64,000 nucleotides of DNA from Bacteriovoracaceae bacterium. Its GTDB lineage: Bacteria > Bdellovibrionota > Bacteriovoracia > Bacteriovoracales > Bacteriovoracaceae. The stretch spans positions 1 to 64,000 of the forward strand of contig JAIPEG010000012.1 in assembly GCA_021737405.1 (NCBI GenBank). Reading direction: 5' to 3'. The notes under the pieces were generated by a model that had not been told where the DNA came from, made no database searches, and worked only from the letters and a program-made list of their open reading frames with translations. Position 1 is the first letter of the stretch, and each line of letters begins with the position of its first letter. A program made the position numbers and the translations under genes. Below, one piece after another: positions 6,683 through 47,566 of this stretch.

Positions 6683-6729
6683 AAGAATCATACAATAAAA
6701 ATATTTTTAACAAGTAAAGCTATTGGGCA

Positions 6730-8173: not shown

Positions 8174-8201
8174 ACCCCCGATAATTACCATTATGGGGGG
8201 T
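8174..8201. repeat. Imperfect GC-capped hairpin
   Basis: ACCCCC-G-ATAAT, loop TACC, then ATTAT-G-GGGGGT forms eleven base pairs with one mismatch. It lies between transposase copy 2 and the VOC gene. Neither strand has a following T-run, so it does not look like a terminator. It could be an element end or a protein-binding palindrome. Confidence 0.4.
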
Positions 8202-8236
8202 AGGCTCAGGGGAGTGATTATATGCCTTTCTAGGGC

Positions 8237-8713
8237 CTATTTAGGCCAATTGACCTCAATATCTAATTCATTATCCTTTGGTTCCCAGCAGATTTCCACT
8301 GTTTTTCCCATAGGATCTTTTACCGTGAATCCCCAGTAAGAATCTTGGCGCCAAGTTGGGTTTTCGCTTTGAGTTTCAAAGGAGCTTTTCTGAATTTTTT
8401 CGACTGTAGATTTAAAACTCTCATGGTTATGGCCTGTAACAGATATTGAGCTTTCTAGATGATCGCCAACACCATCACCAGGTAAATTTCCAAAGCCCAC
8501 AGGAATTTGTGGGAAATCTTCCGGCTTATCATCAGTTTGAAAGAACATCAGTTGAAGCTCATCACTTTTGTAAACGACCCATTTCCAAGCAGAATCAGGA
8601 TCATTATTAAACTGAAGTTCTTCTAGTCCAATCATCTCCGAGTAAAAAGTTTTTGTAAGAGATACATCGGTACAGTAATTATAGATAAACCCGACCTTAA
8701 TTTTTGGTTTCAA
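8237..8713 (-). CDS. VOC (glyoxalase/bleomycin-resistance fold) family protein
   Basis: The 158-residue product has the paired beta-alpha-beta-beta-beta layout of the vicinal oxygen chelate superfamily. The first module starts VGFIYNYCTDVSLTKTFYSEMIGLEEL, and the second ends with FTVKDPMGKTVEICWEP, whose Glu is the usual last metal ligand. Substrates in this family range from glyoxals to antibiotics and cannot be told here. AGGAG lies just before the ATG on the minus strand. It is a single gene, separate from the divergent HEAT-repeat operon. Confidence 0.75.
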   Translation of the reverse strand: MKPKIKVGFIYNYCTDVSLTKTFYSEMIGLEELQFNNDPDSAWKWVVYKSDELQLMFFQTDDKPEDFPQIPVGFGNLPGDGVGDHLESSISVTGHNHESFKSTVEKIQKSSFETQSENPTWRQDSYWGFTVKDPMGKTVEICWEPKDNELDIEVNWPK

Positions 8714-8884
8714 AATATTCTCCTAGATAAATAAGGTAAGTGGCTTTAAAGGTTATCCAACTCTATTGGGAAACGCAAAAATACCCATTTTTAACGGTTA
8801 TTTTTTGCACCTAGTTTCCATTTTTCGATCTAACCTTCTGAATTTATGACTTATTTATGGTGATTTAAAGCCGATAAGCGAAGT

Positions 8885-28930: not shown

Positions 28931-29899
28931 GTGGATCCAATCTTAGCACCAAACGAGGATCGTTTTGTGATTTTCCCAATTCAGTATGACCGGGTATGGG
29001 AGATGTACAAGAACCACATGGCCGTGTTCTGGACTGCTGAAGAAATTGACCTTGTCCCAGATCTTAATGATTGGGAAAAGCTCAGTGACAATGAAAGGCA
29101 TTTCATCAAACACGTCCTAGCATTTTTTGCGGCAAGTGACGGCATTGTTAACGAAAACTTGGCGATGCGCTTTTTTAATGAAGTGCAAATACCAGAGGCG
29201 AGATGCTTCTATGGCTTTCAAATAGCCATGGAAAATATCCACTCTGAAACCTATAGCCTTCTTATTGATACCTACATTAAAGATCCTAAAGAGAAGAGTC
29301 ACCTCTTTAAGGCAGTTGAAACCTTACCTCCTGTTGCCAAAAAGGCGAAGTGGGCAATGAAGTGGATCTCTTCAAAGAGAAGCTTCGCAGAAAGGCTTGT
29401 GGCCTTTGCTGCTATCGAAGGAATCTTCTTTAGTGGATCTTTCTGTGCCATTTTCTGGCTTAAGAAAAGAGGCTTGATGCCAGGACTTTGTACTTCAAAT
29501 GAATTTATCTCTCGTGATGAAGGTCTTCACTGTGAATTCGCCTGTCTTATGCATGAACTACTCTCAGAAGAAGAGAAGGCCAGCAAAGAAGATATCACTG
29601 CGATCATCAGAGAAGCCGTAGAAATAGAAAAAGAGTTTATTACAGAAGCATTACCTGTATCTCTTATTGGTATGAATGCTGATCTTATGAGCCAGTACAT
29701 TGAGTTCGTGGCCGATCACTGGCTAAGAAACTTAAAGTGCGATCCTATTTACAATGTTGAAAATCCATTTGATTGGATGGAACTTATTTCACTAGAAGGA
29801 AAAACAAACTTCTTTGAAAAAAGAGTTTCCGAATACAGTAAATCTGGAGTTGGAACTGATAAGGGACAACAAGTATTCACATTAGACGCGGAGTTTTAA
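28931..29899 (+). CDS. nrdB: Class I ribonucleotide reductase small (beta) subunit
   Basis: The beta subunit houses the diiron-tyrosyl radical cofactor. This 322-residue protein reads like the eukaryotic R2 type: FWTAEEIDL with a metal-ligand Asp near residue 40, then [21 protein letters not shown] with Glu101, His104 and the radical Tyr108, and later RDEGLHCEF. The radical Tyr is kept, unlike in the Chlamydia-type enzyme with Phe. The start is GTG 28931 with AAAAGGAGG upstream. It precedes nrdA by three bases. Confidence 0.95.
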
Positions 29900-29902
29900 G
29901 AA

Positions 29903-32260
29903 ATGTATGTCTTAACAAGAAGTGGCGAAAAAGAGCCTATAAAATTCGATAAAATTACCCAAAGAATTGGCCAACTTGGATCTGACCTTGACGATAGAGT
30001 TGATCCATCGGCCATTGCTCAAAAAGTTATTGAAGGTATCTATGATGGTATCACTACTCGTGAGCTTGATCAGTTAGCAGCAGAGACTGCGGCTTACCTA
30101 TCAACAAAGCATCCAGATTATTCAAAGATGGCCGGAAGAATTGCCGTGAGTAACCTTCACAAGGAAACGCGTGGTTGTTTTTCTGAAAACATCAAAGACA
30201 TGTACAACTACGTTAATGAGAAAACAGGTGAGCATGCTCCCTTAATCTCAAAAGAACTCTATGATGTCGTTATGGCCAATGCCGAAAAACTCGATAAGGC
30301 CGTCATCGACAAGAGAGATTTCGAATACGACTACTTTGGTTTTAAAACACTTGAGCGCTCTTACCTTCTTCGTATGAATGGCGTTATTGTTGAAAGACCA
30401 GGTCAGATGCTTCTAAGAGTTTCAGTAGGAATCCATATGAATAATATGGACGCCGCAATTGAAACCTATGATCTCATGAGTAAAAAACTCTTTACCCATG
30501 CTTCTCCTACTCTTTTTAACAGTGGTACTAGTAAGCCTCAGCTTTCAAGCTGCTTCTTGCTAACCATGAAAGATGACTCTATTGAAGGGATCTACGATAC
30601 CCTTCGCCAAACGGCACTCATTAGTCAAAGTGCAGGCGGCATTGGACTCTCAATTCACAATATTAGAGCAAAAGGTTCCGCGATTAAAGGCACCAACGGC
30701 ACTTCTAATGGAATCGTTCCAATGTTGAAAGTTTTCAACGATACCGCCCGTTATGTTGATCAAGGTGGTGGTAAACGAAAAGGCGCCTTCGCCATTTATC
30801 TTGAGCCATGGCACGCTGATGTTTTTGATTTCTTAGAAATGAAGAAAAATACAGGAAAAGACGAACAACGTGCACGAGACCTTTTCTACGCTATGTGGAC
30901 ACCTGACCTCTTTATGAAAAGAGTAGAAGCAGATGGCATGTGGTCCCTCTTTTGCCCACATGAGTCTCCAGGTCTTGCTGATTGTTACGGCGCTGAGTTT
31001 GAAAGTCTTTATACTCGTTATGAAGAAGAAGGAAAGGCTAAGAAAACCATTCGTGCTCAAGACCTATGGTTTGCGATTTTAGAGTCTCAAGTAGAAACTG
31101 GTTCTCCTTATATGCTCTACAAAGATGCTGTTAACGAGAAATCAAATCAAAAGAACCTAGGAACAATTAAGTCTTCAAACCTTTGTACAGAAATCATGGA
31201 GTACACAGCTCCTGATGAAGTTGCGGTTTGTAACCTGGCCTCTGTTGCTCTTAATAAATTTGTTGATGAGAAAAAAGGTGTTTACGACCATAAGGCCCTT
31301 TTTAATGTCGTAAAACGCATGACCATCAACCTAAATCGTATTATCGACATCAACTACTACCCAGTAATTGAAGCGAAGAACTCAAATATGCGCCACCGTC
31401 CAATAGGCCTTGGTGTTCAAGGATTAGCGGATACCTTTTTTCTCATGCGCTACCCATTTGAGTCTCAAGAGGCACAAGAGCTTAATAAAGAAATTTTTGA
31501 AACTATCTACTTTGCCGCTGTCACTGCATCAGCAGATTTAGCTGAAGTCGATGGACCTTATCAAACATTTGAAGGCTCACCCATGAGTCAGGGAATTTTC
31601 CAATTTGATATGTGGGGAGTAAAGCCAACAAGTGGACGTTGGGACTGGGAAAAGTTGAAGAAGAGAGTGGTAAAAACGGGTGTAAGAAATTCACTTCTTG
31701 TGGCCCCAATGCCTACAGCTTCAACTTCACAAATCCTTGGAAATAATGAGTGCTTTGAGCCCATTACTTCAAATATTTATGTAAGAAGAGTGCTCTCTGG
31801 TGAATTTGCTGTCGTAAACAGATATCTTGTAAACGACCTCGTTCAAAGAAACCTGTGGGACGATGAGATGAGAAATGAGATCATCGCCTGCAATGGTTCG
31901 ATTGCTAGCATCGAGCGCATTCCAGAAGATCTTAAGAGTCTTTATAAAACGGTTTGGGAAATTTCACAAAAGTCTGTCATTGAGCAGGCAGCTGGCCGTG
32001 GCCCTTTTATTGATCAAGGACAAAGCATGAACATCCACATGCAAGAGCCTAATTTTGGAAAACTCTCATCTATGCACTTTCATGCATGGAAATCGGGATT
32101 GAAGACAGGTATGTATTACTTAAGAACTAGAGCGGCAGTAAACGCTGTTCAGTTCACGGTAAAGAGCAACCAAAAAGCAAAACCCACCCAAGAAGAGGCC
32201 CAAGCACAAATGGTTTGTTCAATCGACAACCCAGATGATTGCGTAATGTGCGGAAGCTAG
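29903..32260 (+). CDS. nrdA: Class I ribonucleotide reductase large (alpha) subunit
   Basis: The alpha subunit reduces ribonucleoside diphosphates to deoxy forms. The 785-residue protein has an N-terminal ATP-cone (about residues 1-90) for allosteric control. It has the substrate-site Cys in QLSSCFLL (about 217), the catalytic NLCTEIMEY block (about 427-434) and VCNLASVAL (about 443). It ends in a C-terminal DCVMCGS pair that carries reducing equivalents. Length and motifs match the eukaryote-like class I group. It is followed by a strong terminator. Confidence 0.95.
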
Positions 32261-32284
32261 AAAAACCCATACAACTAGATTTAG

Positions 32285-32314
32285 AAAACTCCCCAGAATT
32301 GGGGAGTTTTTTTT
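32285..32314. terminator. Bidirectional intrinsic terminator
   Basis: AAAACTCCCC (32285-32294) pairs with GGGGAGTTTT (32301-32310) around a six-base loop, followed by T residues. The symmetric A/T flanks let it end both nrdA and the convergent BtaA-like gene. Confidence 0.88.
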
Positions 32315-33410
32315 ATATTTTTTTTAGAATCTGAAAACGATAAACGCCCACTTTTTCCTGAGGATAGAGGTCGCTAAATAAGTGAGTGACGTCTTCAAAA
32401 CCCGTCTTGTCACTATTTGGAATCCGTAGATAATTTCTTAAGACAATGACACCACCATCCATAAGAGAGCCCTTAATGGTTTGTAAGAATGTATGCTCTA
32501 ACTCCCCTTTAAAGTAGCTCGGAACATCGGAGAGTCCAATAAAATCGAATTTATTCTTTAGAAGATCACTCGCTAGGATTTCAACTAAATTACCCTGATG
32601 ATATTCAGGCCTTGGTCCCGAGAGGATTTTTTCTTTAACTTTTAAGAAGTTCTCTTCAGTGGCCTCAACCGGATTTCCGTCACTATGAGTGATTTTCCCG
32701 AAGAAACACAGATGAGCAAAGAAACTATTTCTTGCGAGATTATTTTGAAAAAGCCTTTCAAAAGAACTCTGGTAGTACTCAAAATGACTCTCTTCAACAT
32801 TCTTTTCGATAAAATCACCCTTATAAAGAAGGGCATTAAAAACCGATTTGTTACCTAGTAAGAAAAGCAGGGCATTCCATCGTACTTTATTAAACTCATG
32901 ATCAAAGTATTCTCTTTGTTCTTCTATATTATAGAAATTAAAAATCTTATTATAATTCTTTCCTAAAATCCCTCTTAGCGCCACGGCCATAGTCTGAAAG
33001 GTTCTCTCCCACTTACCTTGATAAAGAAGAGACCCCCAATTAATTTCTACAAAGAGATTTCTAAAAAAGTCTCTATCACGACTCTCTAGCTCTAACGATC
33101 TAAAGATCCGGTTTCTCTCAAAACTATTATCTTGCCCATGAAAAGGCGGATAATCAAAGAATAGCAAAAACTCATTAAAAGTTAGATGACGATACATCGC
33201 CTCTCTTAGACGACAAAGTGAGAGTTGGTACTGAGAGATATCGACAAGATCAATTGAATCAGCACTCTCAAGCAAGGGAAAAGAGCGTGAACCACAACCG
33301 GCCACACTAAAAATACTCTTGGCACCAAGCCGTTTAACAAGCTCCACATCAACGGAAGTATCTTCATTACCCAAGGTGTAATTAAGTTGATTAAAATACT
33401 TTTGAACCAT
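32313..33410 (-). CDS. DUF3419/BtaA-like S-adenosylmethionine-dependent transferase
   Basis: This 365-residue protein resembles BtaA, which transfers the 3-amino-3-carboxypropyl group of AdoMet to diacylglycerol in betaine-lipid synthesis. Visible are a SAM-binding IFSVAGCGSRSFPLL loop near residues 33-47, SIDLVDISQYQLSLCRLRE, and a C-terminal DFIGLSDVPSYF...GGVIVLRNYLR section. Full betaine synthesis also needs BtaB methyltransferase, which is not seen here. It ends a four-gene minus-strand operon with reductase, SDR and lipid-kinase genes, supporting a lipid substrate. Confidence 0.68.
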   Translation of the reverse strand: MVQKYFNQLNYTLGNEDTSVDVELVKRLGAKSIFSVAGCGSRSFPLLESADSIDLVDISQYQLSLCRLREAMYRHLTFNEFLLFFDYPPFHGQDNSFERNRIFRSLELESRDRDFFRNLFVEINWGSLLYQGKWERTFQTMAVALRGILGKNYNKIFNFYNIEEQREYFDHEFNKVRWNALLFLLGNKSVFNALLYKGDFIEKNVEESHFEYYQSSFERLFQNNLARNSFFAHLCFFGKITHSDGNPVEATEENFLKVKEKILSGPRPEYHQGNLVEILASDLLKNKFDFIGLSDVPSYFKGELEHTFLQTIKGSLMDGGVIVLRNYLRIPNSDKTGFEDVTHLFSDLYPQEKVGVYRFQILKKI

Positions 33411-33415
33411 AATAC

Positions 33416-35449
33416 TTACCTTCGCTTTTCCAAGGCGTGCTCACGACAAAGCTCAAATTCTTCATCTGTAATGAAACCATTATGACCCATTATACAGCTT
33501 AATCGAACTCCATGCTCCTTGGCGAGACGATCGATCTCTAAGACCTTCTTGTAACTAATTTTGCGCGAAAGGGTAAAACTCTCATACTTCCCTTCCATGG
33601 CCAATAGAGCAGTTTCAGCTAGGCAGGCATAGACGATATTGCCTTCAAGACCAATATCGATCTTCATATCAACCTTTCCGGGAAGCTTTACTTCTCCTGA
33701 GGCAATGACCATGACATCCGGTCGTTTTAAGGCGTCTTCTTCTTTGATATCAAAAGGTCTTGAGACGTCACAAATGATGGCCCCTGGTTTTACAAGGTCA
33801 ATATCAAGAATTTTCTTACCCTGCGCACTTGTGGTTGTGATAATCAGGTCACAATCTTCAATAAAGGTTTCAGGTTTCGTGGATATTAAAACACTTACTT
33901 CTTTATCAATTTCTTGAATTTCTTCTTTTAGCTCTAATAACTTGTAGGCCCGAGGTGCCACTAAAACGACCTCTTTCCATGACTGAGCGAGGATTTTGGC
34001 AGAGACGGCCCCAATACTTCCAGTGGCTCCAACGATCATGACTCTGCCCTGGTTACGATTATTAACTTTTTGGACAAATCTCATTTTTTCAAGCGCAAAT
34101 TTAGCGGCCCAGAGGGTAGCACAAGCACTTAGGCTATTACCCGTAGTAACAGGAATCGGGCTTTGTGCTTCTACAGTAACCCCTGCGTCACCAACAATCT
34201 TAGTATAGGCGCCAAGACCAATAATACCGGCACCATGACCACAGGCCTCTTCACTGAGGTTAATAAGCTTTTTATAGATTGAGTTAACATCCTTTTCTAA
34301 TAACTTCTTTGGGGTATCCGGTACCGTATAGATAAGTCCCTCAACTTCTTTTCCATTTTTTTCTGAGACAATCCCCCGAATTTTTCCATAATAAAAACCT
34401 GGTAGATAAGAGAGGACTTCTTCAGCAAAAGGCTCGATGGGAGTGCTATAGGGCCTAATATATTTGAGAAGTGGATGATTAAAGAGGTGCTTTCGTCCTA
34501 GAGGATGAATAATAAAAGCAAACTTAGACGCTTGTTCATGATCTTCACCATCAAATCTTATTATATCCGATTCAAGATTTTCTTTATCCATCCAGTTAAC
34601 GATGAGGTCATCATTGAGATAGTCTCCTTTCTCTAGAGTCACTTGAAGACATGCTTCAAGAAGTGAAAAGTTACACTTTTCTACATCAATAAGATTTGGC
34701 ATGGATACGATGACGTCTTTCACGCCTGCTTCTTTAAATCTAGCGAGAAGTTCATCATTAACAAAATCTATAAGAATAGTCTTCCCTTTAAGGTGATCAA
34801 GATTTAAAAGTGAAAATGCACTTTCATTTCCAACAAAGATATCTGATCGATAGAATTCTAGCATTCTCTTAGGAGCATCAACTTGTTTTTCAAATGAATT
34901 AAGATTAGATTTCTTAATTTTCATTTGTGAGAAAAATGGCGCCATGAATTTTATAAACTTATTAAGTTTCTTCTTTTTATTTATTGTGAACGGCATTCCC
35001 AAAAAGAAATAGGGATCTCCTAGGCAAATTCTTGTCCCCATCGATTCAAGTTCATCAATGAGAGAATAATGAAAAGTTCCTGAATAGAAGCTGACTGTTT
35101 TATTGGCCAATACACGCTGGTTTTTAAGAAAGAATTTCTTTAAGGCCCAAGGAAGATAAGTCTTCTTTAAAAGGCCCCCATCCATAACGGGTGACTCTTT
35201 TGCTAAATTTTTTAAAGCACTGACCTGAGGATGAATAAATCCACCACCCTTGTATAAAATGGCAGGAGGCACTCCACTCAAAGAGAAAGCGTCAACAATA
35301 CCATCATATTCTTTGATAATATCTTTTGCTAATTCGAAGTCAAAATTCAAATTGAATTGGGTAATGCGAATTTCTTCGCCAAGAAAGTTAACTTTCTGAT
35401 CTCCATTATCCCCGTAACTAGAGTAACTTAATGAGATAATATGTTTCAT
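33416..35449 (-). CDS. Acyl-ACP reductase (AAR)-like protein with extra N-terminal domain
   Basis: Residues about 310-677 follow the cyanobacterial long-chain acyl-ACP reductase layout: GLGAYTKI (411-418), TTGNS (435-439), a Rossmann VGATGSIGA (473-481), and ACLAETALLAMEG with a Cys at about 609 where the AAR catalytic Cys lies. Such enzymes turn acyl thioesters into fatty aldehydes. The first 300 residues have no equivalent in classical AAR (about 340 in total). That part contains DAFSLSGVPP and repeated alpha/beta segments reminiscent of a quinate/shikimate-type or degenerate reductase fold. It overlaps the SDR gene by four bases. Confidence 0.65.
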   Translation of the reverse strand: MKHIISLSYSSYGDNGDQKVNFLGEEIRITQFNLNFDFELAKDIIKEYDGIVDAFSLSGVPPAILYKGGGFIHPQVSALKNLAKESPVMDGGLLKKTYLPWALKKFFLKNQRVLANKTVSFYSGTFHYSLIDELESMGTRICLGDPYFFLGMPFTINKKKKLNKFIKFMAPFFSQMKIKKSNLNSFEKQVDAPKRMLEFYRSDIFVGNESAFSLLNLDHLKGKTILIDFVNDELLARFKEAGVKDVIVSMPNLIDVEKCNFSLLEACLQVTLEKGDYLNDDLIVNWMDKENLESDIIRFDGEDHEQASKFAFIIHPLGRKHLFNHPLLKYIRPYSTPIEPFAEEVLSYLPGFYYGKIRGIVSEKNGKEVEGLIYTVPDTPKKLLEKDVNSIYKKLINLSEEACGHGAGIIGLGAYTKIVGDAGVTVEAQSPIPVTTGNSLSACATLWAAKFALEKMRFVQKVNNRNQGRVMIVGATGSIGAVSAKILAQSWKEVVLVAPRAYKLLELKEEIQEIDKEVSVLISTKPETFIEDCDLIITTTSAQGKKILDIDLVKPGAIICDVSRPFDIKEEDALKRPDVMVIASGEVKLPGKVDMKIDIGLEGNIVYACLAETALLAMEGKYESFTLSRKISYKKVLEIDRLAKEHGVRLSCIMGHNGFITDEEFELCREHALEKRR

Positions 35450-36525
35450 CTACGCTCTCCCTTAACACATTTAATAATGGCCTCTTTAAAAAAGACATGG
35501 TTAAAGGACGCATAATCAGCGCGGGAATTTTCTCCAAACTCTTGGTCGTAGTATCGATTGATAAATTTTGTTTTAAAATAGAGGTAATCTACTAACGCCT
35601 CTGGAATGTTAAATACTCTCAAACTTTTGCCTAAGAAACTCTTAATTGGCCCAATCGGCGGAAGGGCGACTACTTTCATAGGTCTACCCATCTCCCTTAG
35701 GAAATCTTCTAAGAAATTCTCCATACGGGGAGCATTTTTAGCAATAATATGAAAACACTTTAGTCCTGAATGATTTAGCTGCCCTATTTCATGAATTGCC
35801 TTGGCAGCAAAATCTACAGGCACGAGCGGGAATATGGCCTTACCTTCAAAGGGAAAGGGGACAAAATTCAATAATGACAAGTGTGGCACCTTATTTAAAA
35901 GATTTCCAATATTCTTGAAGAAGTAATAGGGTCCATCACTCTTATCAAATTTCCCAGTTAGGGAATCACCAACGATGACACCAAAGCGCAAGATATCCAC
36001 TTGAACACCTATATTTTTCTTGGCCCATTTTCTCACTAGTCCTTCAGCTTCAAATTTGGTTTTAGCATAAGGATTAGGGAAACTCTGACTCAAATCAAAA
36101 TCATCTTCTGAGAAAGGCCCTTCAAAGTCCCCTGAGATAGCGATTGTTGATGCATAAATGAACTTTTTGATATTAGGGCAATACTCACTGAAGAAGAGGA
36201 CGTTCTGGGTGCCAATAACATTATTCTTGTAAAGCCTCTCCTTAGTCGCATTGAAGTCATAAAGTGCGGCCAGATGAATAACAGTATCAACTAGCTTTAA
36301 CTTCTCAAAAATTTCACTTTTGTCATGAGTCTCTACAAAGAGATCAGGGTGTTGAAGGCCTCCTCTAACAAGATGAATATGAGGGTAGTCTTCAAGTTCA
36401 ACAGATAAACGATCAAATGATCTATCTCTTAAGAGAAGAATATATTCTTCATCAATTTGTTCTTTGATAATTTCAAGATATTTTCCGCCAAGAAAACCTG
36501 AAGCGCCTGTTAGCAATGTCGTCAT
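35446..36525 (-). CDS. Extended SDR family NAD(P)-dependent reductase/epimerase
   Basis: The 359-residue protein has the Rossmann TGASGFLGG loop at residues 6-14, VIHLAA at 82-87, the catalytic Ser/Thr near 126 and the Tyr153-Lys157 pair in YAKTK. The arrangement resembles both thioester reductases and OleD-type 2-alkyl-3-oxoacyl reductases, which act on long acyl chains. It is coupled by four-base overlaps to the AAR-like and lipid-kinase-like genes, so a lipid substrate is likely. Exact chemistry is unknown. Confidence 0.75.
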   Translation of the reverse strand: MTTLLTGASGFLGGKYLEIIKEQIDEEYILLLRDRSFDRLSVELEDYPHIHLVRGGLQHPDLFVETHDKSEIFEKLKLVDTVIHLAALYDFNATKERLYKNNVIGTQNVLFFSEYCPNIKKFIYASTIAISGDFEGPFSEDDFDLSQSFPNPYAKTKFEAEGLVRKWAKKNIGVQVDILRFGVIVGDSLTGKFDKSDGPYYFFKNIGNLLNKVPHLSLLNFVPFPFEGKAIFPLVPVDFAAKAIHEIGQLNHSGLKCFHIIAKNAPRMENFLEDFLREMGRPMKVVALPPIGPIKSFLGKSLRVFNIPEALVDYLYFKTKFINRYYDQEFGENSRADYASFNHVFFKEAIIKCVKGERR

Positions 36526-37481
36526 GACAAAGTAACCTCATTGACCATATCCACAATGTCTCTTTCTCCTTGGGAGTAAACAAGTAAGGTCTGAGGTCTC
36601 ACTGATATATCCCATTTTTTCGCCCTTGAGACGATTTCACCATCACCAAAGAAATTTAAATCCTCCCCTTCTAGAAGCTCAACTTCAAGAGAGTCGGTTT
36701 CAAAGGTGATAATGTTGTTATCTTCTGGGAGAATTTCCCCTTGCCCCATCGACCATAAACATTGGATCAACCTTGCTCTATTCTTATGGGTAAAAGCGGT
36801 AACATTAAATGTGCCATCATTATTACTTGTGTGAGGCGCTACGTGAAAGCTGCCACCCAAGCGGGATTGATTATTGATTAACAAACCAGGAGTTTCAATA
36901 ATGCCAGCAAATTCTTTAGACGTTATTTTTAATTTATAATAAGGAAGACTAGGATCTAGAATTTCTGTCGCAGCAAAGAAGGGATAAATTCTTTTACCGG
37001 TTAATTTCATTAAGTTCTTAAAGAGGGGAACTTTATTTCTAATATTATTTATCTTCTCCGCAACCTGACCACCAAGTCCAATTCCACCATTAGTCGCCAT
37101 AAGTTTGCCATTTATAGAGATAAGATCGATTTTCTTCGTTTCCTGAGAGCGCACCCAACTAATGACTTTCTCAATATTCTTAATAGCGCCAAGTTCATTT
37201 GCCAGATCATTGGCCGTTCCACCAGGGACCACGAGTAGACCAATATCTTCACCTGCTAATTTTTGAATCAAGGTATGAACCGTACCATCCCCTCCAACAG
37301 AGACAATCGTATTAACTTTATTTTTGATATCCTCACCCAAAGAGATCAGTAGATCTTCCTTTGAATCATGATGTCTAAAATTCAGGTGACTCCTAAAAAG
37401 GCGCCTGCCAATTTCCTTTTCCCAGAAATCCATTCCGGTTTGACCTGCTTTGGAATTGAGATAAACACTTATCTCTTGCAT
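36522..37481 (-). CDS. Diacylglycerol-kinase-family lipid kinase
   Basis: This 319-residue protein has the DAGK catalytic signature: GGDGT at residues 63-67 and PGGTANDLA at 86-94, with the typical C-terminal beta domain (SRLGGSFHVAPHTSNNDG). The family phosphorylates diacylglycerol, ceramide or sphingosine-like alcohols using ATP. It is the first gene of the minus-strand lipid operon and its start lies 142 bases from the divergent formyltransferase gene. Confidence 0.85.
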   Translation of the reverse strand: MQEISVYLNSKAGQTGMDFWEKEIGRRLFRSHLNFRHHDSKEDLLISLGEDIKNKVNTIVSVGGDGTVHTLIQKLAGEDIGLLVVPGGTANDLANELGAIKNIEKVISWVRSQETKKIDLISINGKLMATNGGIGLGGQVAEKINNIRNKVPLFKNLMKLTGKRIYPFFAATEILDPSLPYYKLKITSKEFAGIIETPGLLINNQSRLGGSFHVAPHTSNNDGTFNVTAFTHKNRARLIQCLWSMGQGEILPEDNNIITFETDSLEVELLEGEDLNFFGDGEIVSRAKKWDISVRPQTLLVYSQGERDIVDMVNEVTLS

Positions 37482-37623
37482 CAGCTTTTCCTTGGGTGAA
37501 GATGTGATAATTGATTCTATGGTTTTTCTGACACTTTTTTAACGCATAATGTAAAAAATACGTTAGCCGTTGGTTTCTTGGCACTTAGTGATCTAAAATT
37601 AGGAAAAAGACAGGACTAAACTA
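37482..37623. promoter_or_regulatory. Divergent promoter region of the lipid gene cluster
   Basis: The only gap between the two opposing operons of the cluster is 142 bases. It must contain both promoters. It is AT-rich but no boxes can be assigned firmly. Confidence 0.4.
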
Positions 37624-38382
37624 TTGAAAATACTACTTGTGACTAGCCAAACGACGTATATGCCTGGAAATTACCAGGCCCTCCTCAGTGAACTCACTAA
37701 GGCAGGGATTGATAGTGAAACTTGGTCTATAACGGGGCTAGTCTCAATTAAGACGCTCGATGGGCCATTAATCAAAACCATTGTGGGCCTTCCCCTTATA
37801 GGTGTCTTCAACCTGGCCTCTGAACTTATTAAGAATTCTTTTAACCTTTTATTTAAGAGAAGAGAAAAGTTGGCCAAAGAATATCGAATCCCCCATCGCT
37901 TAGTAGATTCAATGAATGATCAATCAGTCATTGATTGGGTTAGGGGCATGGAAATTGACATTATTTTAAATATTCGCACCCGTGATATTTATGGTGAGTC
38001 CATATTAAGAACTCCAAAACTAGGCTGCGTAAATATCCATCACGGTATTTTGCCTGATTATCGAGGAACATTTTGTGACCTTTATGCACTCTATGAAAAT
38101 AGAAATGCAGGTTTCAGTATTCATAAAATGGAAAAGAAAGTTGATGCCGGTGTAATTTTTAAAACTGTGGTCGTAGATCAAGGAACTGAAAAAAACTATC
38201 AACACTACTTAAAGAAAACTGAAGAGGTAGAAATTAAGGAAATAATAGATTTCTTTAATGAGTGCACGAGGTTAAATAATTTTCCAACTGGCATTCCTAA
38301 TAAAACAAAGAGAAAAATATACACAAAGAACCCAACCCCAAAAATGATTAAAAACTTTAAAGCACAAGGATTTATCCTATGA
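37624..38382 (+). CDS. Formyltransferase-family protein
   Basis: The 252-residue protein carries the catalytic triad of the formyl-tetrahydrofolate transferase fold: Asn137 and His139 in NIHHGILPDYRG, and Asp174 in KVDAGVIF. Family relatives add formyl groups to amino-sugars, Met-tRNA or peptides. It lacks the C-terminal domain of methionyl-tRNA formyltransferase, and heads an operon with acyl-activation genes, so a lipid-linked amine or sugar is a plausible substrate. It begins with TTG, and overlaps the next gene by four bases. Confidence 0.72.
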   Translation: MKILLVTSQTTYMPGNYQALLSELTKAGIDSETWSITGLVSIKTLDGPLIKTIVGLPLIGVFNLASELIKNSFNLLFKRREKLAKEYRIPHRLVDSMNDQSVIDWVRGMEIDIILNIRTRDIYGESILRTPKLGCVNIHHGILPDYRGTFCDLYALYENRNAGFSIHKMEKKVDAGVIFKTVVVDQGTEKNYQHYLKKTEEVEIKEIIDFFNECTRLNNFPTGIPNKTKRKIYTKNPTPKMIKNFKAQGFIL

Positions 38383-40859
38383 TGACACCAGAATTTATAA
38401 CCTTTCATGGCTCTCCAGGAACCCCCTACGACTTTGAACCTTTAAGAAGGGCCATATGCCAATATGAGTGGAAAGGCTTTATCCGCTACAAAGAGAGTAT
38501 GCCAATTCCCAGTCATTCAAAGACCTCATTCCCAGTGGCAGTGGGCTACTCATATGGATGTTCGGAAGCAATGCTTGCCGCTTCAAGAAATGAAGAGATA
38601 AAAGCGCTGGTCCTTATTGCACCTTACGCTTTTACGGCCTCCAGTTCTATCTTAAAGAAAGCTCTTGTGGCCCTTCCCGGCATTGGAAATCTCATCTTAA
38701 AGAGAAAAGGATCAGAAATCATTAGTGATCTTCTCACAAAGAGTTCTTATCCAAGCGAAGTGCCACAAATTTATAAATCCTATGGAGAGCACCTTTTGAA
38801 CCCTCTATTATTAAAGGCCGCCGTATGGGAAAAGAAGGACAGGAAGGCCGAATTATTAAGTGCCTGTGAAATTTTAAACAAAAGGGGAATCCCTATTTTA
38901 ATACTTTGGGGAATTGAAGATCAGACTGGAGTTTATGAGGAACAAGTTGGTCCTTTAGAAAAGGCCCTCGAAAATGTAATTATCAAGAAACTCAATAAAG
39001 CAGGACACGCCCTGCCCTATACCCACTATATAGATGTCGCTAAAACCATAGGTTCTTTTTTAAAGGAAGAAATTAAGAAAATCTCTATCACTCAAAAAGT
39101 AAAAGACTCTCAAAAAAAGGAAAGTGAAAAATACGATTTTCTTAATACCGATCATAAATTTGGTTACTATGAAGGAGAACATCAACTCAATAATGTCGCC
39201 TCCTTTCTCTACCATCATCTCAACCTCAACAGGAATCAGGAGATCTTAACATGGGTCCATCCCAATCGATTTGAATACTGGGAAAAGTCACTCTCTTCGC
39301 CTCTTCCCCACGACAGTATAAATGTTGAAGACCTTGATCTACTTGTAGGAAAAATTGCTTCTGGCTTAAAAATATTGGGTCTTAAGAAAAATGATAAAGT
39401 CATCATCTTCATCCCCATGAGTCTCTACTTATATGCGGCGATGTTTGCTGTTCAAAAAATTGGAGCTGTGGCCGTCTTCTTAGATAGCTGGGCCAGAAGA
39501 GATCAAATGGGAGCAGCAGTTGATGTCGTAAGTCCAAAAGCGATTATCTCAGTTGAGAAGGCCTTTGATTACCTAAAAGAAGTAGAGAGTATCTCTAAGA
39601 TTCCTTTAAAAATTGTAGCGGGTGCCCACACAGGTACTTACTCTAAAACCCTTGAAGATCTCATGGGAACTGATAATTATGCCGAGGCCGAGGCGGTTGA
39701 ATCAGAACATACGGCCCTCATTACTTTCACTACTGGCTCTTCTGGAACCCCAAAAGGCGCCGACAGAACTCATCGCTTCCTTGCTGCCCAACACTACGCT
39801 CTTAATAGACACCTTCCCTATCAGTCAGGAGACGCTGACTTACCGGCCTTTCCTATTTTTAGCCTAAACAATCTAGCGGCTGGCGTAAAAACGGTCATAC
39901 CAGCCTTTGATGTTGGTAGCCCTGGAGAGAATGACGCCCTCATTCTTTTAAAGCAATTTGAAGAGACATTGACGACGGCAACAACCCTTAGTCCTTCTTT
40001 GTTAAGAGCGCTTTACAACTATTGCCTCGCCCAAGAAATTAAGCTTCCAAATCTTAAAAGAGTGGTCACTGGTGGAGCACCAGTGAGTAATGATGATGTT
40101 AGAGCGATGAAAAAGGTTGCTCCCAATGCTGAGGTTCTTGTTCTCTATGGCTCTACCGAAGTAGAGCCCATGGCCCATATCGAAGCAGAGGAAATGTTAA
40201 AGGATGACTTTAAAGATACAGATTCCCGCCTTGTTCCAGATGGTGTGAATGTTGGAAAATTCGATAGTGGTTTAGCAGTAAAATACATCAAGATTTTTGA
40301 TGGACCCATATCCATTGGTAAAGAATCAGACTGGGAGAATTTCGAAGTAAAAAAGGGAGAGGTTGGAGAAATTATCGTCTCAGGAGAACATGTGTGTGAA
40401 AAATACTTCAATAACAGTGACGCCACTTTAAAAACAAAAATTAAAGACAACCAAAATAGGATTTGGCACAGAACAGGAGATTTAGGTCGATGCGATCAAG
40501 ACAATAACCTCTGGCTTGTGGGCAGGGTTCATAATGCCATCAGTAGAAACGGCACTTACCTCTTTCCAGTAAGAGCAGAGTTTGTCCTTAAAAAGAGTGA
40601 AAGAATAAAAAAGGCCGCCTTTTTAGGAATTCCAGATACAGAATTTGGAGAAAGGACCGTCGCAGTCTATTCTTTAAAAGAAGAATTTATGGACAAAAAA
40701 ACTGAAGTAGAGAAAGAGGCCAAAGAGCTTCTTGAATATAATGGAATCATCTTTGATCAACTCCTCTGCGTAGAAGATATCCCCATGGATCCGCGGCACC
40801 ATTCAAAAGTAGAATATGGTGTTTTAAGGGAATATCTCAAAGATCAGGCGCTTATTTAA
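38379..40859 (+). CDS. Alpha/beta-hydrolase fused to AMP-dependent ligase (OleBC-like)
   Basis: Residues 1-235 form an alpha/beta hydrolase with nucleophile Ser58 in GYSYGCS, Asp in WGIEDQT and His in KAGHALPY. Residues about 260-826 form an acyl-adenylating enzyme with FTTGSSGTPKG near 452-462, LYGSTEVEPMAHI and HRTGDLGR. The order and the STEVEPMA and GRVHNAIS...FPVRAEF segments resemble OleC, and OleB-OleC fusions are known in bacterial long-chain olefin synthesis. OleA, the thiolase, is not in the window, so the product may differ. It is coupled to the upstream formyltransferase gene. Confidence 0.7.
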   Translation: MMTPEFITFHGSPGTPYDFEPLRRAICQYEWKGFIRYKESMPIPSHSKTSFPVAVGYSYGCSEAMLAASRNEEIKALVLIAPYAFTASSSILKKALVALPGIGNLILKRKGSEIISDLLTKSSYPSEVPQIYKSYGEHLLNPLLLKAAVWEKKDRKAELLSACEILNKRGIPILILWGIEDQTGVYEEQVGPLEKALENVIIKKLNKAGHALPYTHYIDVAKTIGSFLKEEIKKISITQKVKDSQKKESEKYDFLNTDHKFGYYEGEHQLNNVASFLYHHLNLNRNQEILTWVHPNRFEYWEKSLSSPLPHDSINVEDLDLLVGKIASGLKILGLKKNDKVIIFIPMSLYLYAAMFAVQKIGAVAVFLDSWARRDQMGAAVDVVSPKAIISVEKAFDYLKEVESISKIPLKIVAGAHTGTYSKTLEDLMGTDNYAEAEAVESEHTALITFTTGSSGTPKGADRTHRFLAAQHYALNRHLPYQSGDADLPAFPIFSLNNLAAGVKTVIPAFDVGSPGENDALILLKQFEETLTTATTLSPSLLRALYNYCLAQEIKLPNLKRVVTGGAPVSNDDVRAMKKVAPNAEVLVLYGSTEVEPMAHIEAEEMLKDDFKDTDSRLVPDGVNVGKFDSGLAVKYIKIFDGPISIGKESDWENFEVKKGEVGEIIVSGEHVCEKYFNNSDATLKTKIKDNQNRIWHRTGDLGRCDQDNNLWLVGRVHNAISRNGTYLFPVRAEFVLKKSERIKKAAFLGIPDTEFGERTVAVYSLKEEFMDKKTEVEKEAKELLEYNGIIFDQLLCVEDIPMDPRHHSKVEYGVLREYLKDQALI

Positions 40860-40866
40860 GGAAAGA

Positions 40867-41814
40867 TTGATGAATAAAGAAGAAATGCCGATCGATTACA
40901 AAGAAATAAGAATGAACCAAGTTCAGCGCTGGCTGACTTTCTTATCGGAAAGATTTGATCCCATCAGTCACTTTATTATGATCGCCCTCTTTGTTTATGC
41001 TCACTACCTTGTGGCCGATGCCAGTAAATTTGTCATCGTAGAGCCCCATCTTATTATTTATGTTGGTCTTGGCACTGCCGTGTTCTTTATGAAACTTAGG
41101 TTCTACGATGAAATAAAGGATTATGAAGTTGATGTTGAGAAAAACCCAACTCGCCCCCTTCCAAGAGGCCTTCTTAAACAATTTGATGTAAAAAAGGCCA
41201 TTGAACTTTGTATAATTCTTGAAATTATTCTTTTTACGAGCTGTGGTCTTTCCGCCTTCACGGCCATACTCGTGGCCATTGGTTATAGTTTACTGATGTA
41301 CAAAGAATTTTTTATACCAAAGCTTATTAGACCCCATCTAACAACCTATGCAACCAGCCACACAGTTGTCACTTTCTTTTTAAGCCTCGCTATTTTTAGT
41401 GCTTTAAGTAAGTTTAAACTGTGGCGAATGGATTTAGATTTCTATTATTTCTCCATTATGAGTTGGCTGCTCTTCAATATTTTTGAATTAGGCCGAAAAA
41501 TCTATCAGCCTTGTGAAGAGCGCAAAGGAATTGATACCTATTCAAGTGTATGGGGAAAACCAGGTGCAGTTTTGCTTGTTTTAATACACGCTCTTATTGC
41601 CTGTACACTTCTCTTGCACGTATCAACCATTCAATTCTACTTTATGTTAAAGATTTTAAGTGTTCAGTTGGCGCTTCTTGTTCTCGTGGGTCTCATTTAT
41701 TTAATTGGGAAATCCGAAAATACCGGAAAATTCTTTAGACTCTTTAGCTCAGTCTACATCCTACTCGTATATTTATCCGTGATCGTTAATTATTTTGTCA
41801 GAGGGTTGAACTAA
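40867..41814 (+). CDS. UbiA-family membrane prenyltransferase-like protein
   Basis: This 315-residue protein has about eight membrane helices. A cytoplasmic loop carries RFYDEIKDYEVDVEKNPTRPLPRG, matching the first Asp-rich motif of UbiA enzymes, which bind prenyl or phosphoribosyl diphosphate via magnesium. The family joins isoprenoid or sugar-phosphate groups to aromatic or lipid acceptors. A second Asp motif near ERKGIDTYSSVWG is less standard. It starts seven bases after the ligase fusion (the first ATG, 40864, is out of frame) and overlaps the next gene by one base. Confidence 0.72.
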   Translation: MMNKEEMPIDYKEIRMNQVQRWLTFLSERFDPISHFIMIALFVYAHYLVADASKFVIVEPHLIIYVGLGTAVFFMKLRFYDEIKDYEVDVEKNPTRPLPRGLLKQFDVKKAIELCIILEIILFTSCGLSAFTAILVAIGYSLLMYKEFFIPKLIRPHLTTYATSHTVVTFFLSLAIFSALSKFKLWRMDLDFYYFSIMSWLLFNIFELGRKIYQPCEERKGIDTYSSVWGKPGAVLLVLIHALIACTLLLHVSTIQFYFMLKILSVQLALLVLVGLIYLIGKSENTGKFFRLFSSVYILLVYLSVIVNYFVRGLN

Positions 41815-44501
41815 TGTATTTAATCACAGAAAAAAGTGTTGAAACTTACGCTGAAAAAAATGCTGGTGGAAAAGGGTTAAATCTCTACTATCTTGCAAAA
41901 TCTGGTTTTAATGTACCGGCCTTTAACGTCATTCCACCCCACTCTTTTAGAATGTTTAAAAAGCATTTTGATCTAGAAAACCAAGTAAATACCATTATCA
42001 CTTCTCAAATGACTCCTGCACAGATGGAAGAGAGTATTTCTTCTCTTATAAATGCCTGCCCACTTCAAGAGTGTGTTGAATTAAATAATTTCTTAAAATC
42101 AGCTTATGATCAATTAGATTCTAAGTGCATTTCCGTGCGCTCAAGTGCTCTTGGCGAAGATAGTGGTGCCCATAGCTTCGCTGGTCAACTCTCTTCATAC
42201 CTTTACATAACGACGATAGAAGACACAATAGACTCCATAAAGAAGTGTTGGGCCTCTGCTTATTCAGAAAGATCAATCGTATATAGAAGACAAAATGGTT
42301 TGAGCCTAGAGAATATTGAAATCGCGGTCGTCCTACAAATGATGATTTTCTCGGAAAAATCAGGGGTTGTTTTTACAGGAAACCCCATCACCAAAGATCC
42401 TAACCAGATGATCATTAATGCCGTTCATGGAGTGGGAGAAGGCCTCGTCGGTGGCCATCTTGAAGGTGACAACTTCGTCATTGATAAGAGTACCTTAGAG
42501 GTGATTGAAAAAGAGTATAACCCTCAAACGGAAATTTTCACGGGAAGATCCGATGGACGCGGACTTCAAAAGGAATCTTACACCTTAAAAAATAGCGAAG
42601 AGGCGTCATTAACTGAAATTGAGCTTAAAGAATTAGCGGCCCTCTCATTAAAGATTGAATCCTTTTATCAATTTCCTCAAGATATTGAATTTTCTTTTTC
42701 AAAGGGAGAGCTCTACCTCCTTCAAAGTCGGCCAATTACCACAGAGATAAGTAACGGCCATGGGAAGTTATTTATTTGGGATAATTCTAATATTGTCGAA
42801 AGCTATGGAGGCATCACTAAGCCTTTGACTTATGGTTTTGCTCGTTACGTCTATCACCAAGTCTACGTCCAGTTTTGTGAAATTCTCATGGTTCCCCAAG
42901 GCCAAATTAGAAAGATGGATGACTTTTTAAAAAATATGTTAGGTCTCTTTTATGGGCGAGTTTATTACAATCTTTTAAACTGGTACAAGCTCACCAATAT
43001 TCTCCCAGGCTATAAATTCAATCGTAAATTCATGGAAACTATGATGGGAACAGACGAATCCCTCGCTGATGAAATAGCAGAGAGAATTCGTCCGCCTGAA
43101 TACCAACAAACACTAGGGGCACGACTAAAGAAAATTATCACTGGTTGCAAGTTCTTCTATTACCACCTCAATATCCAAAATATTGTCAATAAATTCTTAA
43201 AAGACTTCTACTTCTATTACGATCAGTACAGATCGCTTCCTTTAAAGCAAATGACTGCGGATGAAATTTTTGACAAGTATCGTGCACTAGAAAAAGACCT
43301 ACTCTGGCGCTGGCACGCTCCTATCATAAATGACTTTCTATGCATGGTTCATTTTGGAATTTTTAAGGCGCTTACGGAAAAGTGGCTCAATCACTTAGGT
43401 GATAATTTTCACAATGATCTTTTGGCCGGCAATGGAAATTTAGAGTCAGCAGAACCCACCAAAAGGCTTATTGAGATCACTGGAAAAATTTGTCAGAAAA
43501 AAGACTGTATTGATCTTATTTTAAACACACCAAAAGAAGAGGCACTAGAGGCCCTTAGGCAAAGTCCTCATCAAGAAATCTACTCAGACGTCCTTGATTA
43601 TCTGGATCGCTTTGGCTTTAGGTGCATGAGTGAGATGAAGCTAGAGCAAAAAGACCTTCATCAAGATCCAGGACTTCTCTTTGTCTTTCTTAAGAACCTC
43701 ATAAACGCCAATCAAACTAACTTAGAAGAGTATGAGTTAAGAGAAAAATCAATCCGCGAAAAAGCAGAAAGTGATCTTAAAAGAAATATTTCAGGTCTTA
43801 AAGGACTTATTTACTCTTGGTCCCTAAAGCACGCAAGAAAGGCCGTCATGAATCGAGAGAACACTCGTTTTTGCCGAACGCGAGTTTACGGGGTTGTCAG
43901 AGCGATGATCTTCTCAATTGGTGAAAAGTTAGTGGCCCAAGGAGAACTTCAGGACAAAGAAGACATCTTCTATCTTTCATTAGAAGAATTTGAAGGTATG
44001 TTTGAAGGCACCAAGAGTGTCTTAAATTTAAAGGCCATTGTTGACATGAGAAAGACTGAATATAAGCGCTACGAAGCAGGCGAAGAGCCAGATAGTCGCT
44101 TTATGACCAGAGGTCCGGTTTACTTGAGAAATAGACACTTTCCCTCCCCGACCGTTGTTCACCATGAAAATCTAGGCCCCAATCAAATGGGAGGTCTTGG
44201 TTGCTCCCCAGGAATCGTCGAAGGCCGAGTAAAAGTCATTATGAGTCCTGACGATGATCTGGAACTTAATAATGATATCTTAGTAACCTACCGAACGGAT
44301 CCAGGCTGGATTCCACTTTACCCTTCTGCAAAGGGCCTACTGGTAGAGCGTGGTGGTCTTCTTAGCCACTCTGCAGTTGTCGCAAGAGAGATGGGGTTAC
44401 CAACGATCGTTTCCATCAAAGGCCTCACAAAGAGGTTAAAAACAGGTGATCACATTCGCTTTGACGGAGAAACCGGCCTCATCGAAATTCTATCTGAGTA
44501 A
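41814..44501 (+). CDS. PEP-synthase/rifampin-phosphotransferase-like enzyme
   Basis: The 895-residue protein has the family's three parts: an ATP-binding domain (residues 1-315; SVRSSALGEDSGAHSFAGQ and QSRPITTE), a central helical substrate domain, and a C-terminal swivelling His domain with GGLLSHSAVVAREMGLPTIV, whose His is near 851. Family members split ATP and move its beta phosphate via this His to pyruvate or to another hydroxyl acceptor. The PEP-synthase PEP/pyruvate barrel is not evident, so a non-pyruvate acceptor, as in the rifampin enzyme, is likely. It closes the plus-strand lipid operon. Confidence 0.75.
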   Translation: MYLITEKSVETYAEKNAGGKGLNLYYLAKSGFNVPAFNVIPPHSFRMFKKHFDLENQVNTIITSQMTPAQMEESISSLINACPLQECVELNNFLKSAYDQLDSKCISVRSSALGEDSGAHSFAGQLSSYLYITTIEDTIDSIKKCWASAYSERSIVYRRQNGLSLENIEIAVVLQMMIFSEKSGVVFTGNPITKDPNQMIINAVHGVGEGLVGGHLEGDNFVIDKSTLEVIEKEYNPQTEIFTGRSDGRGLQKESYTLKNSEEASLTEIELKELAALSLKIESFYQFPQDIEFSFSKGELYLLQSRPITTEISNGHGKLFIWDNSNIVESYGGITKPLTYGFARYVYHQVYVQFCEILMVPQGQIRKMDDFLKNMLGLFYGRVYYNLLNWYKLTNILPGYKFNRKFMETMMGTDESLADEIAERIRPPEYQQTLGARLKKIITGCKFFYYHLNIQNIVNKFLKDFYFYYDQYRSLPLKQMTADEIFDKYRALEKDLLWRWHAPIINDFLCMVHFGIFKALTEKWLNHLGDNFHNDLLAGNGNLESAEPTKRLIEITGKICQKKDCIDLILNTPKEEALEALRQSPHQEIYSDVLDYLDRFGFRCMSEMKLEQKDLHQDPGLLFVFLKNLINANQTNLEEYELREKSIREKAESDLKRNISGLKGLIYSWSLKHARKAVMNRENTRFCRTRVYGVVRAMIFSIGEKLVAQGELQDKEDIFYLSLEEFEGMFEGTKSVLNLKAIVDMRKTEYKRYEAGEEPDSRFMTRGPVYLRNRHFPSPTVVHHENLGPNQMGGLGCSPGIVEGRVKVIMSPDDDLELNNDILVTYRTDPGWIPLYPSAKGLLVERGGLLSHSAVVAREMGLPTIVSIKGLTKRLKTGDHIRFDGETGLIEILSE

Positions 44502-46918: not shown

Positions 46919-47566
46919 ATGGATGCAGAATTTTGGAAACAAGCATGGTTTGAGGGAAGAACAGGCTTTCATCGCTCGGAGTATCACCCACAACTCTTGG
47001 AATTTTTCCCTCTCTTTGAGGCCAAGAACGAGCAGAGTATTCTGGTTCCCTTGTGTGGAAAAACCAAGGATCTCACCTGGCTCTCTCACCAAAATCTCTA
47101 TGTTCAAGGAATCGAACTCTCCGAAAAGGCCGTCAGAGAATATTTTTCAGACAATTCAATCGAAAATTATAACGTAGAAGATAATACTTACACTCATCAA
47201 AATTTAACTCTCGAGGTGGGTGACTTCTTTCATCATGAAAAACCCGAAGGATATGATTATATTTACGATAGGGCAGCGATTGTGGCCCTCCCACCATCAA
47301 TGAGAGTTGATTACAGCGCTCACTGCTTAAGCCTCTTAAAACCAGGCGGTAAGATCCTTCTCATCACTTTTGAGTATGACCAATCAAAACTAGATGGACC
47401 TCCCTTTTGTGTACCTGAAAAAGAAGTTAATCAACTATACGCAAAAGAAGGGACAATAGAGTTATTGAATAAGTTAAGTGACAAACCTAATAATCCTAAA
47501 TTTAAGGAAGCAGGTGTTACGACTTTTATCCAAAAAGTATATTTGATTACAAAGAAAGAAGCTTAA
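46919..47566 (+). CDS. tpm: Thiopurine S-methyltransferase-family enzyme
   Basis: The 215-residue protein follows bacterial Tpm: FWKQAWFEGRTGFHRSEYHPQL at the N-terminus, the SAM site LVPLCGKTKDLTWLSHQN, GIELSEKAVREYF and YDRAAIVALPPSMR. Bacterial relatives methylate thiopurines, selenium and tellurium compounds; the native substrate is unclear. It overlaps the convergent 70-residue gene by four bases. Confidence 0.88.
   Translation: MDAEFWKQAWFEGRTGFHRSEYHPQLLEFFPLFEAKNEQSILVPLCGKTKDLTWLSHQNLYVQGIELSEKAVREYFSDNSIENYNVEDNTYTHQNLTLEVGDFFHHEKPEGYDYIYDRAAIVALPPSMRVDYSAHCLSLLKPGGKILLITFEYDQSKLDGPPFCVPEKEVNQLYAKEGTIELLNKLSDKPNNPKFKEAGVTTFIQKVYLITKKEA

Follow-up and report, generated by a model that had tools for sequence, protein, structure and literature searches.

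A conserved eight-gene locus of the Bacteriovoracaceae and relatives as a candidate two-module pathway for a capped, amine-bearing lipid

In this work, we analyzed a 64,000-nucleotide stretch of DNA from a Bacteriovoracaceae bacterium (GenBank assembly GCA_021737405.1, contig JAIPEG010000012.1, positions 1 to 64,000; hereafter, the window), focusing on a locus of eight intact open reading frames (ORFs) arranged in two divergent operons between positions 32313 and 44501. We read this locus, with somewhat better than even confidence, as a two-module pathway for a long-chain lipid that bears a capped amine. The gene set appears to be undescribed as a combination, although its enzymes belong to known families. 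What sequence comparison provides directly is the gene set itself, its conservation, the intact catalytic residues of its enzymes, the exchange of one module between two versions and, in some relatives, linkage to exporter genes.

On the minus strand, the operon encodes a YegS/diacylglycerol-kinase-family lipid kinase (DGK; 36522..37481, 319 amino acids), an extended short-chain dehydrogenase/reductase (SDR; 35446..36525, 359 amino acids), an acyl-thioester reductase (AAR; 33416..35449, 677 amino acids) and a DUF3419 protein (32313..33410, 365 amino acids). On the plus strand lie a formyltransferase-family gene (FMT; 37624..38382, 252 amino acids, TTG start), a fusion of a serine-hydrolase-like domain and an AMP-forming ligase (38379..40859), a UbiA-family membrane protein gene (40867..41814, TTG start) and a gene for an ATP-dependent phosphotransferase or ligase resembling phosphoenolpyruvate (PEP) synthase (PEPS; 41814..44501, 895 amino acids). 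An earlier note on this DNA had described this divergent arrangement with nearly all junctions overlapping or nearly touching, and the coordinates bear it out, with overlaps of 4, 4, 4 and 1 bp and gaps of 5 and 7 bp within the operons. The same note had proposed one shared promoter region; the intergenic gap of 142 bp (37482..37623) is present, but promoter-like matches in the region did not exceed chance (27 versus 28.3 ± 5.9 in shuffled sequences), and therefore it is the layout that suggests a shared promoter. When 6 of these gaps were aligned within the genus, 3 contained a block resembling TTAACGCATAATGT with one mismatch or none. The region has 14 terminator-like sites, compared with 9.7 ± 2.5 after shuffling; they include a stem-loop with a 13-pair stem and a T-rich tail on the plus strand (32283..32312), which separates the end of the minus-strand operon from a ribonucleotide reductase gene.

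The eight genes had been proposed to act as one set, and their distribution among relatives (genomes and loci are cited below by G and L numbers, families by f and genera by g) agrees with this. The divergent eight-gene order is kept in 12 fetched relatives, four of which have PEPS cut by the stretch end and three of which carry the hydrolase and the AMP-ligase as two ORFs, and it is partially visible at contig or stretch ends in others. Both operons are intact but unlinked in G008 and G054. In two loci of family f7 (L066, L131) and one of f8 (L112), the genes run on one strand in the order DGK, SDR, AAR, DUF3419, FMT, hydrolase, AMP-ligase, UbiA and PEPS, the hydrolase being encoded separately; this run is also seen in L113 up to UbiA, a genome search placing PEPS directly after it, and L109 (f6) has all genes of the set plus exporter genes on one strand. 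In the closed genome G170, presumably that of Bdellovibrio bacteriovorus HD100, FMT is followed consecutively by the hydrolase/AMP-ligase fusion, UbiA and PEPS, and further on come DUF3419, AAR, SDR and DGK and then genes for an FtsX permease and an ABC ATPase; that Bdellovibrio-like genomes have the set had been missed in the earlier note. Among 55 genomes with a fetched reductase stretch, that stretch also contained SDR in 51, DGK in 48, DUF3419 in 44 and at least one gene of module B (defined below) in 40.

Furthermore, searches of 368 genomes of the phylum, counting matches that passed limits of E ≤ 1e-60 for the reductase, 1e-100 for PEPS and 1e-10 for DUF3419 (two of the searches scored at most 3 and 2 candidates per genome), recovered the reductase in 108 genomes, PEPS in 122 and DUF3419 in 126. 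All three were present in 95, with 97 genomes sharing reductase and PEPS, 101 reductase and DUF3419, and 112 PEPS and DUF3419; eight genomes had DUF3419 and neither of the others. Hence the co-occurrence check found conserved neighbourhoods instead of scattered homologues. The core also leaves the phylum, as one run of genes on a Roseinatronobacter sp. S2 plasmid comprises UbiA, PEPS, DUF3419, a membrane protein, a GNAT-family gene and an AMP-ligase. The membrane protein of that run (L099:4932-6251, 439 amino acids) had no Pfam or NCBIfam match, and judging by a motif it looks like a phytol/dolichol kinase.

Judging from trees and identities, the set is composed of two modules: DGK, SDR and reductase (module A) follow the host family, and AMP-ligase, UbiA and PEPS (module B) occur in two exchangeable versions. 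Many PEPS loci without FMT carry a GNAT-family gene, often together with a cytochrome P450 gene. Forty-six genomes and one plasmid had PEPS or UbiA in the fetched stretches, 21 with FMT only, 17 with GNAT only, none with both and 9 with neither, as scored with thresholds of our own and hidden Markov models built from the same loci, and with several of the 9 cut by contig or stretch ends. The hydrolase was found in 24 of 26 FMT genomes (the remaining two are cut) and in 0 of 17 GNAT genomes, and the P450 in 10 of the 17 and in 0 of the 26. Six further genomes followed suit, with GNAT in G103, G109, G191 and G254, FMT in G155, G150 being cut, and both in none. In a PEPS tree of 33 chosen loci (ORFs of at least 700 amino acids), a branch with 100/100 support splits the two types, with 18 FMT-type rows from four families on one side. 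Conversely, the reductases of 27 chosen loci, three of which (L051, L052, L056) take their type from a module B cluster at another site of the same genome, group by family (f1, f6 and f8 each forming one group), and the type label needs at least four changes on their tree. Mean identity between members of the same family and different type was 0.45 for the reductase, 0.38 for PEPS and 0.23 for UbiA, versus 0.36, 0.50 and 0.35, respectively, between different families of the same type, the UbiA values including rows fused to the AMP-ligase. Across 23 loci, reductase distances correlate at 0.93 with those of DGK and at 0.61 with those of PEPS. Among the same loci, the reductases of G171 and G170, from one genus, are mutually nearest (0.76), and the PEPS of G171, unlike its reductase, is nearest to GNAT-type proteins of other families.

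The exchange, which the earlier note had missed, can be followed within a single genus (g15), where the FMT version of G020 (L054) and the GNAT/P450 version of G103 (L132) and G109 (L133) all lie beside DGK-SDR-AAR-DUF3419. On the far side, the same genes come next in either version, first two related ORFs of about 460 amino acids and then one of about 350, which are 58-67% and about 50% alike between types, respectively; this was checked in four FMT-type genomes (G020, G104, G099 and G101), the third gene lying beyond the contig in G104. As the neighbours on both sides are the same, one cassette replaces the other at one site. The neighbours beyond DUF3419 gave no match to L132 and a weak match to L133. 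Either transfer or an old duplication followed by loss would give this pattern. The DUF3419 gene sits with either module and may join the two.

Regarding the enzymes of module A, the earlier description of AAR as acyl-ACP-reductase-like (ACP, acyl carrier protein) stands for the catalytic part, to which an extra N-terminal domain of about 300 residues has to be added. Residues 361-649, approximately, resemble PigE and acyl-ACP reductase, and alignment to PigE (4ppm) and to acyl-ACP reductase (6jzq) places Cys609 on the catalytic cysteine of the latter, at the position mutated as C294S in 6jzz (Cys294 of AAR, numbered from the 6jzz title); the residue is invariant in nine reductase sequences. 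Scores were 162 bits against a cut-off of 850 for the PigE model, covering the reductase part only, and 55 against 450 for TIGR04058, and no aminotransferase domain was found in the window ORF by profile searches. Among the best Foldseek matches of the reductase model was 6jzq, at a low TM-score. The model of the N-terminal domain (mean pLDDT, the AlphaFold confidence measure, 76.8) had loose structural matches only, the best being the carmabin TAD at TM 0.51 and a root-mean-square deviation of 8.0, and this domain may be a second, degenerate version of the reductase fold. Stand-alone homologues of it with 35-36% identity (L072:9592-10545, L073:2995-3951, L074:9887-10843) occur in genomes that also hold the full reductase elsewhere, among neighbours that look unrelated. 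The SDR belongs to the Male_sterility/NAD_binding_4 family (PF07993, 110 bits), scores 201.8 bits against the N-terminal half of PRK07201 (cut-off 549) and conserves Y153 and K157 in 31 rows; it is likely an aldehyde or thioester reductase. In the lipid kinase (PF00781, DAGK_cat, 63.5 bits; PF19279, YegS_C), the GGDGT motif (G63-T67) is on the list of positions conserved in at least 95% of 30 rows, the window included.

In module B, the Asn-His-Asp triad that is catalytic in folate-dependent formyltransferases is intact in FMT (PF00551, Formyl_trans_N, 40.5 bits), which aligns to Fmt and ArnA and conserves N137, H139 and D174 in 22 rows. The hydrolase/AMP-ligase fusion described in the earlier note is borne out, as PF00501 (AMP-binding, 141 bits, about residues 310-820) and PF00561 (alpha/beta hydrolase, 23.6 bits, just under the cut-off, about residues 1-260) match one ORF. 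Its hydrolase motifs GYS[YFW]G and GHA[LI] are present in all 14 rows bearing the domain, the window included, out of 17 aligned; in some other families the first is looser ([GA]xSxG), such as AYSMG in L066 and AHSWG in L109. The AMP-ligase is fused to UbiA in six genomes (L063, L069, L090, L119, L120 and L122), and thus the two proteins probably act together. UbiA prenyltransferases have two Asp-rich motifs; in the UbiA-like protein, which barely passes the Pfam cut-off (PF01040, 34.3 versus 34.2 bits), the first is kept as DExKDxxxD and the second is replaced by ExxRK (E207, R210, K211). Lastly, the architecture of the PEPS-like protein, called PEP-synthase-like in the earlier note, is not that of a PEP synthase: an ATP-binding domain (PF01326, PPDK_N) is followed by a middle region without assigned family and a C-terminal phosphohistidine domain (PF00391, PEP-utilizers) at residues 820-888 of 895, and the C-terminal PEP/pyruvate-binding domain of the TIM-barrel family was not found by Pfam profile search. 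The phosphohistidine motif LSH[ST]A is present in 29 of 29 rows that reach it, three being cut. Scores fell below cut-off for RedH (368 versus 1350 bits), PigC (333 versus 1300) and Rph (330 versus 999), and above it for NF004881 (1018 versus 883), which bears the name PEP synthase; likewise, the best solved relatives, 5hv1 and 5fbs, are named PEP synthase in the PDB table, and we take them to be rifampin phosphotransferases.

The DUF3419 protein is a putative S-adenosylmethionine-dependent 3-amino-3-carboxypropyl transferase outside the BtaA-like clade. Its PF11899 score of 105.5 bits contrasts with 379-393 bits for proteins of three genomes of the phylum (G241, G257, G304), whose genes each adjoin an ORF of 240-243 amino acids (L125-L127) that is a methyltransferase by Pfam in the two examined, L125 and L127; judging from this layout, these are presumably BtaA and BtaB. 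In the DUF3419 tree, these high-scoring proteins lie across a branch of length 5.46 with 100/100 support, outside a clade (100/98) of 47 cluster-type proteins. The tree left out matches under 50 bits, proteins under 300 amino acids, duplicates and the row of the window itself, and included L041, a 77% relative; its branches are long, and the joins of Roseinatronobacter and two other outlying rows are unsure. No BtaB-like N-methyltransferase was found among the eight genes by ORF list and profile search. A TPMT-like ORF (46919-47566), considered as the missing methyltransferase, was discarded as it lies outside the operons and has a match listed among the fetched relatives only in L052. Elsewhere, a plasmid of Deefgea piscis (L100:19249-21478) has a DUF3419 gene, 35% identical at the protein level to that of the window, between an iron-containing redox enzyme gene and speD; the annotated neighbours listed for it include no gene of a lipid enzyme. 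In L082 (G017), DUF3419 lies directly between PEPS and a gene for phosphatidylserine decarboxylase (PF02666), and nearby (1399-8516) are genes resembling, by look, those for phosphoenolpyruvate mutase, phosphonopyruvate decarboxylase, an iron alcohol dehydrogenase and a ketosynthase.

Linkage to export functions was observed in several relatives. In L130 and L131 the set is in a row with an ABC ATPase gene and with those for an FtsX permease and a LolA-like protein, next to which there is also an ORF of 395-399 amino acids (without Pfam match in L131); in L131 the LolA-like protein is above the PF17131 cut-off and the LolC/E-like permease scores 91.6 bits with TIGR02212. Of 51 reductase genomes, 16 had FtsX or LolA-like genes within the stretches fetched. 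The LolA-like gene was discarded as a general marker of the set, being found in only 27 of 98 genomes and giving no match in the genus of the window. In L077 (G010), an ORF of 976 amino acids (6986-9916) appears to contain an aminotransferase followed by a reductase domain, the reverse of the PigE order, and lies beside GNAT, P450, PEPS, UbiA and Lol-like exporter genes.

From these features we infer a pathway in which every reaction, the order of reactions, the product and its location are deduced from protein families and gene context. Module A would make the chain, with the reductase converting an acyl thioester to a fatty aldehyde via Cys609, the SDR performing a further reduction and the kinase phosphorylating a lipid alcohol. 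S-adenosylmethionine would then serve the DUF3419 protein as donor of a 3-amino-3-carboxypropyl group, and module B (AMP-ligase, UbiA-like and PEPS-like proteins) would complete the head group through carboxylate activation and ATP-driven phosphotransfer. The choice of cap would be the exchangeable part: formyltransferase and serine hydrolase here, and a GNAT acyltransferase with or without P450 in relatives, resulting in a formyl or another acyl cap. In several relatives the product is probably passed on to the Lol-type exporter for the outer membrane, a step not visible in the source genome. The aldehyde-derived, amino-modified lipid suggested in the earlier note fits these enzymes, and it also fits the exporter of Lol type that some relatives have next to the set.

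Several results weigh against this reading. The full-length reductase model has low confidence (mean pLDDT 61.6) and is poor in the catalytic part; the reaction of the DUF3419 protein is deduced from a distant family; the altered second motif of the UbiA-like protein means that its substrate cannot be guessed; and the action of FMT and GNAT on the same amine is suggested by their mutual exclusion only. No exporter was found near the set in the window, and a LolA-like query had no match in the source genome (G000) or in six congeners. The fetched stretches of 15 of the 55 reductase genomes have no module B gene, partly owing to contig ends, and 25 of 122 PEPS genomes have no reductase and 11 of 108 reductase genomes no PEPS, some of these genomes being incomplete and some not. 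The distances of reductase and PEPS do correlate (0.61), and the Fisher and Mantel values ignore shared ancestry.

Among the alternatives, the two operons might belong to two independent pathways (DGK-SDR-AAR-DUF3419 on one side, FMT-ligase-UbiA-PEPS on the other) with only the promoter region in common. The unlinked operons of G008 and G054 speak for this, as do genomes with module B and DUF3419 but no reductase, such as G073 and G093; it nevertheless appears unlikely, given that PEPS accompanies the reductase in 97 of its 108 genomes and that the genes form a single run on one strand in L109, L112 and L131, with most of them likewise in L064. We grant the same low standing to a tambjamine- or prodiginine-like small molecule, made by acyl activation, thioester reduction to an aldehyde and ATP-dependent condensation by a PigC/TamQ-like ligase, because the trio of AAR, PEPS and AMP-ligase recalls that logic. 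PigE is the closest relative of the reductase domain, PEPS scores 368 bits with RedH and 333 with PigC, a PigE-type aminotransferase-reductase, a PEPS gene and an AMP-ligase occur together in prodiginine-type plasmid clusters, and the L077 ORF sets an aminotransferase-reductase beside GNAT, P450, PEPS and UbiA. On the other hand, the window ORF is devoid of the aminotransferase domain, all scores are far under the curated cut-offs, bipyrrole genes were not found among the eight, and a soluble pigment would not account for a lipid kinase, UbiA and DUF3419, nor for the Lol-type exporter seen in relatives.

Two further readings have much less in their favour. A betaine lipid pathway of the BtaA/BtaB kind, in line with the perhaps betaine-like lipid of the earlier note, could appeal to a DUF3419 domain above the Pfam cut-off, but the separate clade of this protein, its low PF11899 score next to the BtaA-like proteins of the same phylum and the lack of a methyltransferase in both operons make this pathway very improbable, and we rejected it. 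Least credible of all is an OleABCD-type hydrocarbon pathway with an OleBC fusion. The fused hydrolase and OleC-like ligase recall such a fusion, with 234 bits to an OleC model, but the OleC models remain below their curated cut-offs (234 versus 900 and 220 versus 850 bits), OleD scores 35 against 580, and no OleA-like or thiolase-like family is encoded by the eight genes, which were the part of the genome searched for OleA. Moreover, OleB has an aspartate nucleophile, whereas the motif of the 14 domain-bearing rows carries a serine. On these grounds, we rejected the Ole reading.

Returning to the capped, amine-bearing lipid, a broader and more tentative proposal, which we hold possible at rather less than even chances, is that of an undescribed outer-membrane lipid class of predatory bacteria, Bdellovibrio included, in which the chain module would stay constant while the head-group module is exchangeable, and close relatives would differ in their surface lipids as formyl- or acyl-capped, much like exchanged surface polysaccharide cassettes. 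Should this hold, the model bacterial predator, together with about a quarter of the genomes sampled from the phylum (95/368), has a lipid class that went unnoticed, and the two versions of module B represent a natural chemical contrast within one genus. As the outer membrane of a predator must resist its own lytic enzymes and touch the prey, an exported special lipid would be a candidate for that role. In agreement with the earlier note, no description of this gene set was found in the open-access literature searched, which is weak evidence since subscription papers mostly fall outside its scope. A search by HD100 locus tags, with numbers estimated from genome position, gave one relevant match, naming Bd3176, a transpeptidase. 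The available passages of PMC12546842 do not concern these genes.

As for the surroundings, the cluster is flanked by a ribonucleotide reductase pair (28931-32260, named by look) on one side and by an ORF of 148 amino acids without family match on the other. Many relatives likewise have the ribonucleotide reductase pair close to the cluster, which points to a stable locus. Another ORF of the window (26207-27172) resembles a tyrosine recombinase by look and has homologues within the fetched stretches of several relatives. The source genome is incomplete (3.36 Mb in 56 contigs, 84% complete).

Compared with known systems, the locus is related in parts to several. Like tambjamine and prodiginine clusters, with their PigE reductase and PigC/RedH ligase or the Tam counterparts, it brings together a PigE-like thioester reductase, a RedH/PigC-like PEPS protein and an AMP-ligase, but its reductase has no aminotransferase domain, it adds a lipid kinase, UbiA, DUF3419 and a formyltransferase, and there are no bipyrrole genes among the eight. 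With the cyanobacterial acyl-ACP reductase (6jzq) it shares the catalytic cysteine by alignment, differing in the extra N-terminal domain and in a TIGR04058 score of 55 versus 450 bits. The BtaA-BtaB system also has one DUF3419 protein, although that of the locus belongs to another clade and is not accompanied by a BtaB-like methyltransferase. With rifampin phosphotransferase, the PEPS-like protein has in common an ATP-binding domain placed first and a phosphohistidine domain placed last, but it scores 330 bits against a cut-off of 999 and lies in another gene context. Finally, the LolC/E-like permease and LolA-like protein beside the set in L131 recall the LolCDE-LolA system, from which they differ in the permease score (91.6 bits versus a lolCE equivalog cut-off of 362), in not being seen in the window, and in their linkage to genes of lipid enzymes.

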